Under the pieces are notes generated by a model, which was not told the DNA's origin, made no database searches, and worked only from the letters and a program-made list of their open reading frames with translations. A stretch of DNA of 64,000 nucleotides. Origin: Snodgrassella alvi wkB2. Its GTDB lineage: Bacteria > Pseudomonadota > Gammaproteobacteria > Burkholderiales > Neisseriaceae. The stretch covers positions 2,010,894 to 2,074,893 of the forward strand of contig NZ_CP007446.1 of NCBI RefSeq assembly GCF_000600005.1, given 5' to 3'. Shown piece after piece: positions 39,909 through 63,366 of this stretch (the first letter of the stretch is position 1; each line of letters opens with the position of its first letter). Made by a program: the position numbers and the translations under genes.

Positions 39909-41003
39909 TTATCCGTTCGGCAATGGTCTCTCTTTACCGCTGTCCCCGCTGTCCGGGTCTGGCGGCGGCGGGTAAATCACATTATTACCATCGCCATTGT
40001 TGCCGCCATTACCGATGCCGCCGTTACCGATGCCGCCGTTACCGATGCCGTTGTTATCGTTACCGTTGTTATCGTTGCCATTGCCATTGTTGCCATTGTT
40101 ATCGTTGCTGTTGTTATCTCCGTTACCGATGCCACTGCCCGGGTTTGGCGGCACTTCGGGCGCAATCACATTAATAAACATCTTCATCAGTTCGCCGCCG
40201 GTTTCAAATTCGGTGAAGGGCGTGCCAATATCTTCGCTATCATCGTATTTGTCCAGAATGGCGCCGAACTCCTCGCCGCTTAGCGGGCTTTTAAATACCT
40301 GCACATCACAGACAGCCCCGTTAAACGGGTAAATTTTCGCGTCTTCATAATAGGCCATCTCCCAGTTTGTGAGACTGAATATCCGGAATTGATCAAATTG
40401 CTGCAGCGGCAAGATGTTCACTTCTTCATACTCGCCATTGACATATACACCAGCCAACCCTGCATCGGCATTGCTGCAAAAATTAAACCCGATACTCGCC
40501 CACTGGTCGCTGTCATTGATGTAAATGCCGGTTTCAGTTTTCCTGATATTGTCCTCATCATTCAGCGCCATGTAATACGTAATAATCTGGTAATTTTCAA
40601 CTGCAATCATTAACTTTTCACTGTTGCGGCCTTTCTGGCCGTACAGCACACACAGCAGCATTGAGCTATCCGGAAATTGTCCCGGCTTAATACGCATGGT
40701 TAGCGCGTTGCCAAACAGTCCGGAGGCATTGACTGAGTCATCAGATGGGTAATTATCATCATTGCGGTAGCTGTTAAGCAGCAATGCGTTTTGATTATCA
40801 ATGATTTTATATATTCCCTCTGTCTGCTCGATATCGTCGTATGCCAGCAGATTTCGCCCGGTTAGCTGATCTATCCAGACGCAGTTATTATCATATTCGG
40901 CAGCGGTAAACGGCAGGACGGTTACCGGCTCAGGCTTAACTACACCTAGTGGCAGGTAATACCGCCAGCCATGATGGGCATAGATTTTCACAAATACGCT
41001 CAT
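39909..41003 (-). CDS. LamG-like tail appendage protein
   Basis: A 364-residue protein whose middle (about residues 70-240) looks like a concanavalin-like LamG fold (ALTMRIKPGQFPDSSMLLCV, WASIGFNFCSNADAGLAGVYVNG, FNGAVCDVQVFKSPLSGEEF). The last third is low-complexity Gly/Asn/Asp repeat. It probably decorates the tail tip or serves as a host-binding appendage. It overlaps the preceding gene by 4 bp. Confidence 0.65.
   Translation of the reverse strand: MSVFVKIYAHHGWRYYLPLGVVKPEPVTVLPFTAAEYDNNCVWIDQLTGRNLLAYDDIEQTEGIYKIIDNQNALLLNSYRNDDNYPSDDSVNASGLFGNALTMRIKPGQFPDSSMLLCVLYGQKGRNSEKLMIAVENYQIITYYMALNDEDNIRKTETGIYINDSDQWASIGFNFCSNADAGLAGVYVNGEYEEVNILPLQQFDQFRIFSLTNWEMAYYEDAKIYPFNGAVCDVQVFKSPLSGEEFGAILDKYDDSEDIGTPFTEFETGGELMKMFINVIAPEVPPNPGSGIGNGDNNSNDNNGNNGNGNDNNGNDNNGIGNGGIGNGGIGNGGNNGDGNNVIYPPPPDPDSGDSGKERPLPNG
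40006..40130 (-). repeat. Gly/Asn coding tandem repeats
   Basis: Short tandem repeats coding GIGNG-, GNDNNG- and GNGNDN-type units near the C-terminus of the LamG-like protein; a likely flexible linker and slippage-prone. Confidence 0.75.
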
Positions 41004-60011: not shown

Positions 60012-61298
60012 CTACATCCTGAGATCATACCGGCCATGTGCCGGTTTCTGTATTGGGTACAAATACGCAATCGGGTACGTGCCGGCATCTATCACGTGAT
60101 CGATACCGCTGGATTTATCAGGCGCACCGTTTTTGTCATATGCCTGCTGCTCTAATGCTTCTGTAAAACGCGGGCATTTTTGCGGATTAACAAACATGCG
60201 CCTTTCTTTGTTTGCATTCAGCAGCATGGCATTGGTCGCATTAATCCGATCCTTAACGGCTGGGTTGGATTTCCCAACCCTAACGGATAAACCGGCTTTT
60301 TTGATTATCGATAAATCAGATTTTGAATAATCTTTGCTGCTGGTGTTCTGTCCGCTGGCGTCTGGGTAAATATCAATCTGATGGTCCGGATACTTCGCTT
60401 TAATCAAATTGCACATTTCCGGCGTGTCACGCACATCAACCAGTTCATCAACTGCATACGGAATCCCATTGCGCAAAACGTAAACAACCGCGGCCATTTT
60501 CAGTACGTTAAAGTCCATACCGATATGCAGCCGTTCTCCCTCTTTTATCGTGGCTGTAGTGCTGTTTGCCTCTCTGTCAAAGCAGTTATAAACCGCACCA
60601 GATGTTAAATTGACGAATTGCCCGTTTAAATACGCTTTGATTAGTTCAGGCGGATAACTGGCATATAGCGAGGAAATATAATCATCAGGCAGATTAGCAG
60701 CGTTATCAAAAGTGCTTGCCTGTATTAATCCGTAAAACTGGGCCAGCTCCGGCTTTTCTCTGATATCCTTAACAAACCGCTCATAAACAAAGCGAAAACC
60801 CTCTGGTGTAGTGGTTACATCTATGCCATTTGTTAAGCCGGGTATCTTATAACGCAGACGGGCAATTGTTTTATTCCAGATCTGGAGGGCTTTTTCTTTT
60901 TTAAGCGTATCCAGCTCATCAACCAAAGCATGCCCGATTTTAAAGCCGACAATTGTGTCTGGCTTATCCATTGAACGGCATATTGTTGTGCCACGGTAGA
61001 TGCTGGTCCCAGCTTCATAAAAATCGACCTCTTTATTAGCATACTTAATATCAGCCCTGAGCCCCCATTGAGACGCCACCTCTTCTATAGTAGGAAAAAA
61101 AATATCTCTGATCTGCGGGTATGTCGGAGCAAAATAACCTTGGTTTACTTTAGGGAACTGCCAGAAACGCGCGCACATTGCAGATCCGCCTACCCATGTT
61201 TTCCCGCCGCCAAACCCTGAAACAAACGCCCTGAATTTCTTATTTAGGTTGTAGAATCTGGATTGAGGAGTATTAAGTATCGGTGTAATCGTTGTCAT
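60012..61298 (-). CDS. Terminase large subunit
   Basis: DNA-packaging motor, 428 residues from the start at 61298 (MTTITPIL). Walker A is SGFGGGKTWVGG (about residue 27), the acidic Walker B is HALVDELDTL and the nuclease domain begins at LHIGMDFNVLKMAAVVYV. The start overlaps the small subunit by 26 bp. Confidence 0.93.
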   Translation of the reverse strand: MTTITPILNTPQSRFYNLNKKFRAFVSGFGGGKTWVGGSAMCARFWQFPKVNQGYFAPTYPQIRDIFFPTIEEVASQWGLRADIKYANKEVDFYEAGTSIYRGTTICRSMDKPDTIVGFKIGHALVDELDTLKKEKALQIWNKTIARLRYKIPGLTNGIDVTTTPEGFRFVYERFVKDIREKPELAQFYGLIQASTFDNAANLPDDYISSLYASYPPELIKAYLNGQFVNLTSGAVYNCFDREANSTTATIKEGERLHIGMDFNVLKMAAVVYVLRNGIPYAVDELVDVRDTPEMCNLIKAKYPDHQIDIYPDASGQNTSSKDYSKSDLSIIKKAGLSVRVGKSNPAVKDRINATNAMLLNANKERRMFVNPQKCPRFTEALEQQAYDKNGAPDKSSGIDHVIDAGTYPIAYLYPIQKPAHGRYDLRM

Positions 61299-61734
61299 TA
61301 CTTGCCCTTGCATCCACGGTCTGCACAATAATTTGCACCGGTACCGCCTCCTGTGCTGGATTTTCGACTGTGGGCTTATCTCGCCATAGTTCAGGCTGCC
61401 TGTTCTTTAACCAGAATATCTGGGCAGTAGAATCAGGCGGTATGTGTTTTTTAGTTACACGCTTAACCTTTTTCTTGCCGTCATCGCGCACCTCTACTTC
61501 CGTTACTTCGATGCCCGTAGCTCTTTTAAACAGCGATTCTGCCACCTGTGCATCTGCGATAACCTTACCGCTTTTTATGGACTTGCAAAATTCAGGATAT
61601 TTATCTTTCCATCTATTAATCGTGCTTTCGTTTACACCAAAAAAAGCGGCTAGCTGCTTATCAGTAAAACCCAACAGACACAGTTTGCGTGCCTGTTCGG
61701 CATACTCTTGCCTGTAGTCTGTTGGTCTTGCCAT
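61273..61734 (-). CDS. Terminase small subunit
   Basis: 153 residues. The N-terminal HTH is clear (CLLGFTDKQLAAFFGVNESTINRWK), followed by an oligomerisation helix (DAQVAESLFKRATGIEV) and IFWLKNRQPELWRDK, the typical terminal motif that contacts the large subunit. Confidence 0.88.
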   Translation of the reverse strand: MARPTDYRQEYAEQARKLCLLGFTDKQLAAFFGVNESTINRWKDKYPEFCKSIKSGKVIADAQVAESLFKRATGIEVTEVEVRDDGKKKVKRVTKKHIPPDSTAQIFWLKNRQPELWRDKPTVENPAQEAVPVQIIVQTVDARASNDNDYTDT

Positions 61735-61757: not shown

Positions 61758-62204
61758 TTATCCTTTATATCGCCATGATGTTGTGTATCGATGTCTGCTA
61801 TCAGTATTTTTAGTCCTTTTGCTTCCATTAATTTTTCCGTTTCCACGTGCATTTCTTCCCTGTGTTATTAACCCCCACTTCGGGCTATTGTTTAAGGACT
61901 TTATTAACTGAGGCGATGAGGTAACTATCCCGAATTGATTATGTTGAATATAGTTATCAGCAACAATTTCTAACAATCGCATACCTATTCCTAACCCCTG
62001 ATAATCCGGATAGACAACCAGCCTATGCACTTTTATGAGATTCTTTAACTTAGGGTGAGGGAAACGCATAACGCTACAAAATCCAACTAATTCATTTTCG
62101 ATATATGCGCCATAACATTTTGCTGCTGCAATATGAAAATGACTTAAATAATGATATTTGCTAAAACTCTGCCAGTGGCTTTTGTCGATACGTTTAACCT
62201 GCAT
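61758..62204 (-). CDS. GNAT-fold acyltransferase, partner of the ABC ATPase
   Basis: 148 residues. The N-terminus SKYHYLSHFHIAAAKCYGAY is unusual for ordinary GNATs and recalls the transferase half of COG2401 (ABC ATPase plus predicted acetyltransferase); the CoA loop is HRLVVYPDYQGLGIGMRLLEIV. The start overlaps the ABC gene by 61 bp in the -1 frame. Upstream codons in this frame stay open back to an A9 run, so a frameshift there fuses it to the ATPase. Substrate unknown; base modification of phage DNA is an inference. Confidence 0.75.
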   Translation of the reverse strand: MQVKRIDKSHWQSFSKYHYLSHFHIAAAKCYGAYIENELVGFCSVMRFPHPKLKNLIKVHRLVVYPDYQGLGIGMRLLEIVADNYIQHNQFGIVTSSPQLIKSLNNSPKWGLITQGRNARGNGKINGSKRTKNTDSRHRYTTSWRYKG

Positions 62205-62827
62205 TCGGAGCGGCGGTCTTTTTTTTTACCAGCTAATCTAAACTCCATTAAATTTGTATCAAAAACCCAATCAGGCAATAACCAGTCCTCTACATCATAA
62301 TGACAACTAATAGCAATAAACTGCTTGTCTGATTTTCTTATTGCCTTTTGAACAGCATAACTACTAACCTGTGCAACCTGTCTATCTACAACGCTAGTAA
62401 ACTCGTCAAAAACAAACATTTTATTTTCAGCTAAAATTGCATTAGCCAGATCAATTCGCATTTTCTGCCCGTTGCTCAATACATGGTAAGGTTTAACCCA
62501 GCATGGAGGCGATGAAAAACCTACTGAGGAAAATACAGAACAAATCTCATTAACACTTTTGTTTGCAGGCATATCATCAATTACAGAATTATTACTGTAA
62601 TTAAATTCAGTAACATAATTATCACCAAATAATTCTCTTGCTATGGTTGTTTTACCTGTTCCGCTAGCTCCAACAATAAGCCCTATTTGCCAATTAGCCG
62701 GCAAATCTATATTTCCTGAAAATGTAATGGTGTGATTCTCGTCACTTAAATCAAATTTATCTATAACTGATTGCGTTCTAAATGACTTACTTGGGGTGTG
62801 TTTCCTTACAAAGCTAAAATGCGGCAT
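62144..62827 (-). CDS. ABC-type ATPase (COG2401-like)
   Basis: 227 residues and soluble. Walker A is VGASGTGKTTIARELFG (about residue 52), the signature is VLSNGQKMRIDLANAI, Walker B is KMFVFDEFTSVVD, and the switch His is in AISCHYDVEDWL. It has no membrane part, so it is not a transporter. The end reads AGKKKDRRSE through an A9 run (62219-62227). The ParB-like gene overlaps its start by 22 bp. Confidence 0.85.
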   Translation of the reverse strand: MPHFSFVRKHTPSKSFRTQSVIDKFDLSDENHTITFSGNIDLPANWQIGLIVGASGTGKTTIARELFGDNYVTEFNYSNNSVIDDMPANKSVNEICSVFSSVGFSSPPCWVKPYHVLSNGQKMRIDLANAILAENKMFVFDEFTSVVDRQVAQVSSYAVQKAIRKSDKQFIAISCHYDVEDWLLPDWVFDTNLMEFRLAGKKKDRRSECRLNVSTKATGRVLANIII

Positions 62828-63366
62828 TGATACCCTCTGGCAGATAATTCATTAAATATTTCTTCTTGCTGAACCTCATCGGCAACTTCAACCTCAACCA
62901 CTAATTTAGTCTCCAAGACTTGTTCTTTAGGTGGCTTTTTGGAGTCAGTAACTTCATTTACCGGATCTTTGAAAAAATCCTCATCAAATCCCAGTAAATC
63001 AATATCAAACTCATTGAGTTCTAATGCCTCAATTTCAGCGCGCAAAATATCTAAATCCCACCCGGCATTTAAAGCCAGTTGGTTATCTGCAATCAGATAT
63101 GCTCTCTTTTGCAATTCTGTAAGCCCGTGCAGAATAATACAAGGCACCTCATTCATGCTTAGACTTATCGCAGCCTCAAGCCGCGCATGCCCTGCTATAA
63201 CGTTGTGCTGCTCATCAATCAGAATCGGATTAGTGAAACCAAATTCCCTGATTGAATTAGCTACCTGATTGATCTGCTCATGCGTATGCGTCCTACTATT
63301 ATTCACATACGCGTTAATTTGTTTTACATCCTGATACACTACAACTAAATTTTTACTGCCCGTCAT
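62806..63366 (-). CDS. ParB/Srx-fold protein
   Basis: 186 residues. The ParB nuclease-like domain (about 8-95) has SIREFGFTNPILIDEQHNVIAGHARLEAA and VPCIILHGLTELQKRAYLIADNQLA. The C-terminal part is acidic. In phages this form usually precedes DNA methyltransferases or other DNA-modifying genes; here it leads the ABC/GNAT pair and terminase. The domain could bind or cut DNA, or hydrolyse CTP or ATP. Confidence 0.85.
   Translation of the reverse strand: MTGSKNLVVVYQDVKQINAYVNNSRTHTHEQINQVANSIREFGFTNPILIDEQHNVIAGHARLEAAISLSMNEVPCIILHGLTELQKRAYLIADNQLALNAGWDLDILRAEIEALELNEFDIDLLGFDEDFFKDPVNEVTDSKKPPKEQVLETKLVVEVEVADEVQQEEIFNELSARGYQCRILAL

Follow-up and report, generated by a model that had tools for sequence, protein, structure and literature searches.

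A phage ABC–GNAT gene family with a probable recoding joint, interchangeable slip signals and a conserved second frame

The window analyzed here is a stretch of 64,000 nucleotides from Snodgrassella alvi wkB2 (contig NZ_CP007446.1, positions 2,010,894 to 2,074,893 of the forward strand). Near one end, within a prophage, it carries a cassette of three overlapping genes for a ParB-like protein, an ABC ATPase and a GNAT acetyltransferase, directly upstream of the terminase genes. An earlier reading made from the DNA letters alone (hereafter the sequence-only reading) had described these genes with overlaps of 22 and 61 bp, and had proposed that the last two are fused by a −1 frameshift at a run of nine A residues (A9) and that their product modifies phage DNA before packaging. 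The gene coordinates and both overlaps, ParB/ABC at 62806-62827 and ABC/GNAT at 62144-62204, proved exact. The features of the locus, in window coordinates, are as follows.

62806..63366, minus strand: ParB-like gene, first in the cassette (Pfam ParB_N, 4.5e-7)
62144..62827, minus strand: ABC ATPase open reading frame (ORF), whose unslipped reading would give the short product, ABC plus tail (ABC_tran, 5.5e-9)
62219..62227, minus strand: A9 run, putative slip site from the ABC into the GNAT frame, with an in-phase A_AAA_AAA heptamer
62226..62228, minus strand: upstream TAA by which the GNAT frame is closed unless a slip occurs
62144..62218, minus strand: tail of the putative short product, overlapping the GNAT start in another frame
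62145..62156, minus strand: codons of the conserved GNAT YHYL motif
61758..62204, minus strand: GNAT acetyltransferase half, counted from its first ATG (the frame opens at 62225; Acetyltransf_1, 2.5e-9)
61273..61734, minus strand: small terminase subunit, the next gene (phrog_309, 4.6e-55)
60012..61328, minus strand: large terminase subunit (Terminase_6N, 2.9e-29; Terminase_6C, 1.8e-14)

In the ABC frame the A9 run reads GGT AAA AAA AAA GAC, and a −1 slip leads into AGA CCG CCG CTC CGA ATG of the GNAT frame, with the stop just upstream in the unslipped register; the joint is as the sequence-only reading had described it. The TAA that ends the ABC frame (62144-62146) overlaps the last YHYL codon. 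Both genes matched phrog_11143, a single family of 357 positions that spans the ABC and GNAT halves, the window ABC at positions 5-208 (5.9e-63) and the window GNAT at positions 205-349 (2e-27); because these are successive halves of one family, the proper place of the GNAT half is after the ABC half. Read without a slip, the gene would yield a short form, the ABC ATPase with a tail of about 20–40 residues that ends at the stop hidden in the YHYL codons. A slip at A9, by a polymerase that adds an A or by a ribosome that moves to −1, would yield the long ABC–GNAT form.

Relatives were drawn from 61 related genomes, four viral-contig scans with ABC queries, one genome scan and eleven named phages; class sizes reflect this sampling, because the genome scan and three of the four viral scans each contributed their best 80 matches. 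Of the 362 loci that had an ABC match, 356 allowed the joint to be placed (four had no GNAT start in range and two no ABC end), and identical junctions were merged, leaving 259 distinct ones; ten further named phages lie outside this set. Frame was taken from the matches at the ends of the joint, L162 and L173 carrying upstream indels and L092 a later GNAT indel. All expected values given below treat loci as independent although the loci are related. Members of the family occur in contigs of phages as well as in genome bins of bacteria and archaea. Among the 259 junctions, 168 are fused in frame, 89 are split with GNAT at −1 and two are at +1, both of the latter being A-run length variants one base off close relatives (L026 with A11, L305 with A8). 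The slip signals form four classes: class I has a U-run or other slip motif in a split locus, often with a stem-loop; class II, to which the window belongs, has A9–A10 in a split locus; class III has exactly A10 in a fused locus; and class IV is fused with a Shine–Dalgarno (SD)-like GGAGG, three nucleotides and CTT or GTT, the +1 layout of prfB. Copies of the family are numerous in Bathyarchaeota metagenome bins, with several to a bin (L296, L297, L299, L301-L307, L310-L314, L316-L318, L321 and L322), and are mostly split at −1 at A7 or A9 runs; L305 has A8 against the A9 of near relatives, which puts GNAT at +1 to the ABC frame.

Runs of at least nine A stand at the joint in 132 of the 259 loci, within the range of transcriptional slippage (about 9 or more coding-strand A), and within those genes there are 132 such runs at the joint versus 10 elsewhere in 141,693 nt. 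Run length is exactly A10 in 101/101 fused A-run loci; where split −1 loci have a run of at least 8, it is A9 or A10 (30/30). Across the 101 distinct fused loci the class III joint is mostly CAA AAA AAA AAT. Across 58 representatives that share <90% identity in nucleotides, Gln, Lys, Lys and Asn are encoded at the joint by CAA, AAA, AAA and AAT without exception once one locus, misplaced owing to an in-frame stop, is set aside, and AAG appears in 2 to 23 of the same loci at other columns of conserved Lys; this codon comparison, whose loci were preselected by the exact string CAAAAAAAAAAT, is circular if taken alone, and the 101-locus count was made without that choice. Outside the CAAAAAAAAAAT selection lie 22 fused loci, of which L172 and L227 have A10, L093, L099, L204, L239 and L245 are of the SD type, and the remaining 15 (L002, L003 and L076-L088) are without an A-run. 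The run is thus conserved at the joint in the comparison of relatives that the sequence-only reading had proposed.

Two IMG/VR contigs share the prophage end of the window, one with 99.95% identity across 5,853 bp and the other with 99.98% across 5,854 bp; both keep its frame at the joint, with A9 in L009 and A10 in L010. In L010 (4600-4609) the sole mismatch in 5,854 bp, a T-to-A change, turns GGT-A9 into GGA-A10 and leaves the frame unmoved. A random homopolymer miscall is unlikely because these two contigs keep the window frame, and the same −1 joint recurs in the distant L011, which is apparently L289 of Gilliamella. The window gene could be taken for a fused gene broken by a one-base homopolymer indel, through decay or sequencing error, given that fused relatives exist, that homopolymers are prone to indels and that L026 and L305 are each one base off close relatives. 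Against the frame shared by the window, its two near-copies and L011, the A9 or A10 in all 30 split −1 A-run loci and the conserved residues retained by the window GNAT half, this explanation is hardly credible. The sequence-only reading had allowed either slippage or a switch by A-tract length, that is, a contingency locus in which the run changes in DNA and turns GNAT on or off between cells. A9–A10 runs are mutable, the sister loci L214 and L215 are respectively fused and split, and the runs of L227 and L215 are one A apart in length. Nevertheless, run length is fixed by class (101/101 and 30/30, with A11 and A8 as the two other variants), and the U-type and SD classes keep the same two frames without a long mutable A-tract. 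Phase switching is accordingly disfavored and, in our estimate, quite unlikely, whereas programmed slippage has strong comparative support in the fused relatives, the kept run and the small number of GNAT starts.

In the split loci, an in-phase X_XXY_YYZ slip heptamer is found at the joint in 72/89, the window included, compared to 11.0 expected on the basis of the remaining sequence of those ABC genes (49/60 representatives versus 7.4 expected). The motif varies by lineage, with A9–A10 in the window, L011 and other contigs, A7 or A9 in Bathyarchaeota, U5–U9 in lactococcal, streptococcal and other contigs, and A_AAG_GGC in an Oenococcus phage. A stem-loop often lies a few bases downstream of the slip motif in the U-type clades, and a U-run followed by a stem is the classic arrangement for ribosomal −1 frameshifting. 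In a set of 188 junctions, folding was stronger than under a null of GNAT-synonymous codons (p<=0.05) in 16/34 U-type loci, in 0/30 other split loci and in 3/121 fused loci; the stem-loop as a general feature of the family was rejected on the latter two counts. The U-type group was assembled by clade once stems had been noticed by eye in some of its members, and it contains near-copies. The stem arms covary between phages (CCCCCAC/GTGGGGG, GCCCAC/GTGGGC, GCCCGCG/TGCGGGC and CGCCACG/CGTGGCG), and in L194 the stem pairs over 14 bp.

The split loci might instead be ordinary overlapping genes in which GNAT is initiated separately, through translational coupling, with the A-run being a coincidence. 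Overlaps of tens of bases are common between prokaryotic genes, the window GNAT has an ATG five codons after the slip, and Enterococcus phage 9184 has an ATG just before GNAT. Yet in 64 of the 89 split loci the GNAT frame contains no ATG, GTG or TTG more than 8 codons ahead of YHYL, and in 81 it contains no ATG in that stretch (in eight it does); because such starts are scarce, some annotators draw truncated GNAT genes. Mere overlap should also produce both −1 and +1 arrangements, which would serve equally, so the strong excess of −1 (89 of 91 out-of-frame junctions) counts against it, as do the in-phase heptamers at about six times expectation and a second frame that stays open in fused relatives (below). 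We therefore regard simple overlap as unlikely.

The fused loci without an A-run carry another signal. An in-frame SD-like GGAGG or GGGGG, a motif defined after it had been seen, stands at the joint in 66 of 67 such loci compared to 9.1 expected under synonymous randomization, and the motif followed by three nucleotides and NTT, the spacing of prfB, is found in 62/67 compared to 1.76 expected. Elsewhere in the class IV genes, AGG makes up 5.6% of Arg codons, CTT 8.0% of Leu codons and GTT 14.2% of Val codons. In prfB, according to the available part of PMC12421855, an SD-like AGGGGG and three nucleotides precede CTT, and the available part of PMC5009743 gives the same 3-nt spacing for +1 frameshifting and notes GG_AGG variants. 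Class IV shares with prfB the GGGGG or GGAGG placed exactly 3 nt before a CTT slip codon, but the next codon is a sense codon (CGG, CAA, CAG and others) rather than UGA, the slip site is usually NTT C rather than CTT T, and the unslipped reading gives the long protein; the CTTT slip followed by an in-frame stop was not found in class IV. Class IV thus resembles prfB in layout and is not filed as the prfB type. The ten further named phages add to this picture: EastWest, Jace, AnClar and Komp_PAO1_1 show similar motifs, and in four others the signal is weaker or indistinct. GGAGG is also a strong ribosome-binding site, so the motif might start a free GNAT internally rather than shift the frame. 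A start codon (ATG, GTG or TTG) 4–12 nt downstream of the motif is present in the GNAT frame in 0/66 class IV loci and in any frame in 6/66, while NTT keeps its fixed spacing in 62/66 and the +1 frame is open in 66/66. We rejected internal initiation on the missing GNAT-frame starts, and consider it very improbable.

What ties the classes together is the stop hidden in the YHYL codons and the frame that leads to it. The ABC frame ends at this same stop in 89/89 split loci. In the fused loci, the second frame (+1 to GNAT) is open from the slip site to YHYL in 101/101 of class III (42.1 expected) and 66/66 of class IV (46.5 expected). The first stop in this frame is the one at YHYL in 101 class III loci, against 19.9 expected, and in 65 class IV loci, against 17.6 expected. 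Summed over both fused classes, the frame is open in 167/167 compared to 88.6 expected under the synonymous null, and the shared stop is present in 166 compared to 37.5. The remaining third frame is open in 2 class III loci (4.2 expected) and 24 class IV loci (30.8 expected). With representatives at <85% identity within each class, 28/28 and 54/54 are open and the stop is present in 28 and 53; 0/1000 simulations reached values as high. The signals also point the right way, −1 in class I where the fusion lies at −1 and +1 in class IV where the short frame lies at +1. The shared stop, the open frame and the direction of the signals lead us to read all classes as making the same two proteins. Relatives would keep the two products of the window through a U-run, often with a stem (−1), through a fused A10, or through an SD-like GGAGG, three nucleotides and CTT or GTT (+1). 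The joint is thus family-wide, with interchangeable signals and a conserved second frame, and is not a lone A9. Judged from sequence, we think it quite probable that this is a recoded phage gene that gives a short ABC-plus-tail protein and a long ABC–GNAT protein from one message across the classes. That slippage takes place, at what ratio, and whether ribosome or polymerase is the slipping agent, we infer.

Several observations weigh against this reading. The folding test found no RNA stem downstream of A-run joints, the window included; an A-run without a stem is compatible both with slippage by the polymerase and with a run that is itself very slippery. No in-phase heptamer is present in 17/89 split loci, mostly P335-like with a U_UUU tetramer, and tetramer runs alone are weak evidence for −1 slippage. 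Among the U-type loci, 18/34 miss p<=0.05, and the group was compiled with some of its stems already noticed; the definition of the SD motif likewise came after its discovery. In 25/89 split loci an ATG, GTG or TTG lies well before YHYL, the window among them (ATG 62202-62204), so that GNAT may be initiated independently in individual loci. In class IV, the sense codon that follows and the NTT C slip mean that +1 efficiency may be low, and one of the 66 loci is missing the YHYL stop from its alternative frame. Aeromonas phage AsFcp_2 has the SD-like motif without the YHYL stop. Tenacibaculum phage pT24 (L372:2483-3655) has an in-frame joint and a stop soon after YHYL, by which the deposited pT24 GNAT is cut in two. 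Finally, the GNAT fold is nearest to ordinary GNATs, some of which act on proteins.

Fused and split layouts interchange on the ABC tree. A tree of 144 representatives required 11 fused/split changes, or 10 without four long branches, with weak support on 59/141 inner branches. The sister loci L214 and L215, mentioned above, differ in layout. A five-label count of signals on the tree (24 or 19 changes) was not used, as incidental TTTT and AAAAAA motifs blur the labels.

The model of the L029 fusion has a mean predicted local distance difference test score (pLDDT) of 87.7 and a predicted template modeling score (pTM) of 0.80, and its ABC half matches ABC transporter ATPase domains. Residues G56-x-G58-K59, L117-S118-x-G120, D141-E142 and H176 are invariant in 44 fused relatives; we take them to be the P-loop, the LSNG signature, the DE of Walker B and the switch His. 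The AlphaFold2 model of the window GNAT has a mean pLDDT of 91.0, and its Q-x-x-G-x-G/A is presumably a loop of the acyl-CoA type. The sequence-only reading was to fall if the GNAT belonged to an ordinary class, and in part it does, the nearest folds being ordinary GNATs, among them RimI and NatE. Its link of the GNAT to Mu Mom did not hold. Mom is likewise GNAT-like, modifies DNA bases and is sometimes found beside ParB, and an HY motif aligns over 29–31 residues, but Mom has no ABC ATPase, and profile comparison (hhalign with a five-sequence Mom alignment) gave non-significant probabilities of 1.6% and 0.5%, on which membership of the GNAT in the Mom family was rejected. The tRNA(Met) cytidine acetyltransferase TmcA (2zpa), which combines an ATPase with a GNAT and acts on a nucleobase, ranked 48 in Foldseek for the fusion model with a low TM-score of 0.30. 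TmcA has another ATPase type and an RNA substrate and is a single protein, so the resemblance is analogy and not kinship.

Gene context bears on the substrate. An ORF of the blastp cluster that contains ParB lies directly upstream in 224/248 loci with >400 nt of upstream sequence. Downstream, the two largest clusters, whose representatives are the small and large terminase subunits, account for 100/242 loci with >600 nt of downstream sequence, and the rest are mixed. The window ParB matched phrog_620 (1.3e-54) and the ParB-methyltransferase family phrog_498 (5.2e-46), resembling the ParB part of ParB-methyltransferase fusions (phrog_498; PADLOC MTase_II). In Microbacterium phage Bush (L415:969-2121) a Mom-like gene overlaps a ParB-like gene in the same arrangement as ParB–ABC–GNAT. 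The available part of PMC7824862 cites an earlier prediction that a GNAT coupled with an ABC ATPase makes an acyl modification, itself uncharacterized, on a DNA base, and its example QAX98348.1 is the family protein found in AsFcp_2. Modification of a DNA base by the ABC–GNAT family is thus a reasonable, unproved proposal that draws on gene context and the published prediction. The source of that prediction is reportedly Iyer 2013.

In the mechanism that we propose, ParB would guide an ABC dimer bearing one GNAT or two, which would acylate phage DNA at a base amine ahead of packaging, and we give this about an even chance. Recoding could also be real and the enzyme act on a protein, such as the terminase, the host ribosome or RNA polymerase. 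RimI, NatE and other GNATs are its nearest folds, and some phage GNATs are thought to modify host proteins, as the available part of PMC7824862 notes; the ParB partner of a type fused to DNA methyltransferases, the overlapping Mom-like and ParB genes of phage Bush and the published DNA-modification prediction (PMC7824862, available part) speak against it. A protein target is a possibility that we take seriously and still find doubtful.

Other observations concern the neighborhood of the gene. A formyltransferase-like gene, recognized by eye in translations or from annotation, follows the ABC–GNAT gene in four distant members (L002, L003, L375 and L376), which hints that the transferred group may vary. 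L300, from a Treponema bin, has a second, apparently free-standing GNAT-like ORF of the same family downstream of ABC–GNAT. In seven split loci (L089, L095 and related) an ORF of one cluster follows GNAT; the ORF that comes after GNAT in MismyG carries an ASCH annotation. Within the window prophage, 15-bp short tandem repeats lie at 40001-40118.

Programmed recoding as a kind is known, and several systems offer parallels. In dnaX, according to the available part of PMC5009743, E. coli uses ribosomal −1 frameshifting and Thermus transcriptional slippage; ABC–GNAT would likewise be one gene with two nested products, but the family mixes split and fused layouts and +1, −1 and A-run signals. In insertion-sequence orfA/orfB, as described in the available parts of PMC4066793 and PMC5009743, the 0 frame encodes one domain and a −1 shift the fusion, at a slip run and often with a stem-loop. 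Split ABC–GNAT loci have the same organization, but ABC–GNAT is not a transposase and its fused relatives keep the short-product frame through other signals. The closest account is that of the phage ABC–GNAT system in PMC7824862, which concerns the same family, both window halves matching phrog_11143; the available part makes no mention of recoding, two products or a shared stop. Recoding in the ABC–GNAT family appears to be new, no report of it having been found in the literature searched, with most subscription papers and bioRxiv outside coverage.

The strict retention of the second frame means that the short ABC form is important. Since ABC ATPases function as dimers, we hypothesize that a mixture of the products would leave each dimer with either one GNAT arm or two. 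More tentatively, and with somewhat less than even confidence, we propose an obligate two-subunit enzyme in which recoding sets the ratio of ABC-only to ABC–GNAT subunits, and hence the number of acyltransferase arms per ABC assembly that would modify DNA ahead of the terminase; in its evolution, three unlike signals would have been exchanged and fused and split layouts swapped about ten times with both products and the YHYL stop conserved. Recoding would explain why some annotators split or truncate ABC–GNAT genes. Recoding is usually cataloged gene by gene, and one family that uses −1, +1 and A-run signals for one purpose would provide a natural experiment on how recoding signals replace one another. 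It also offers a stoichiometry hypothesis for a predicted, uncharacterized DNA-acylating system.

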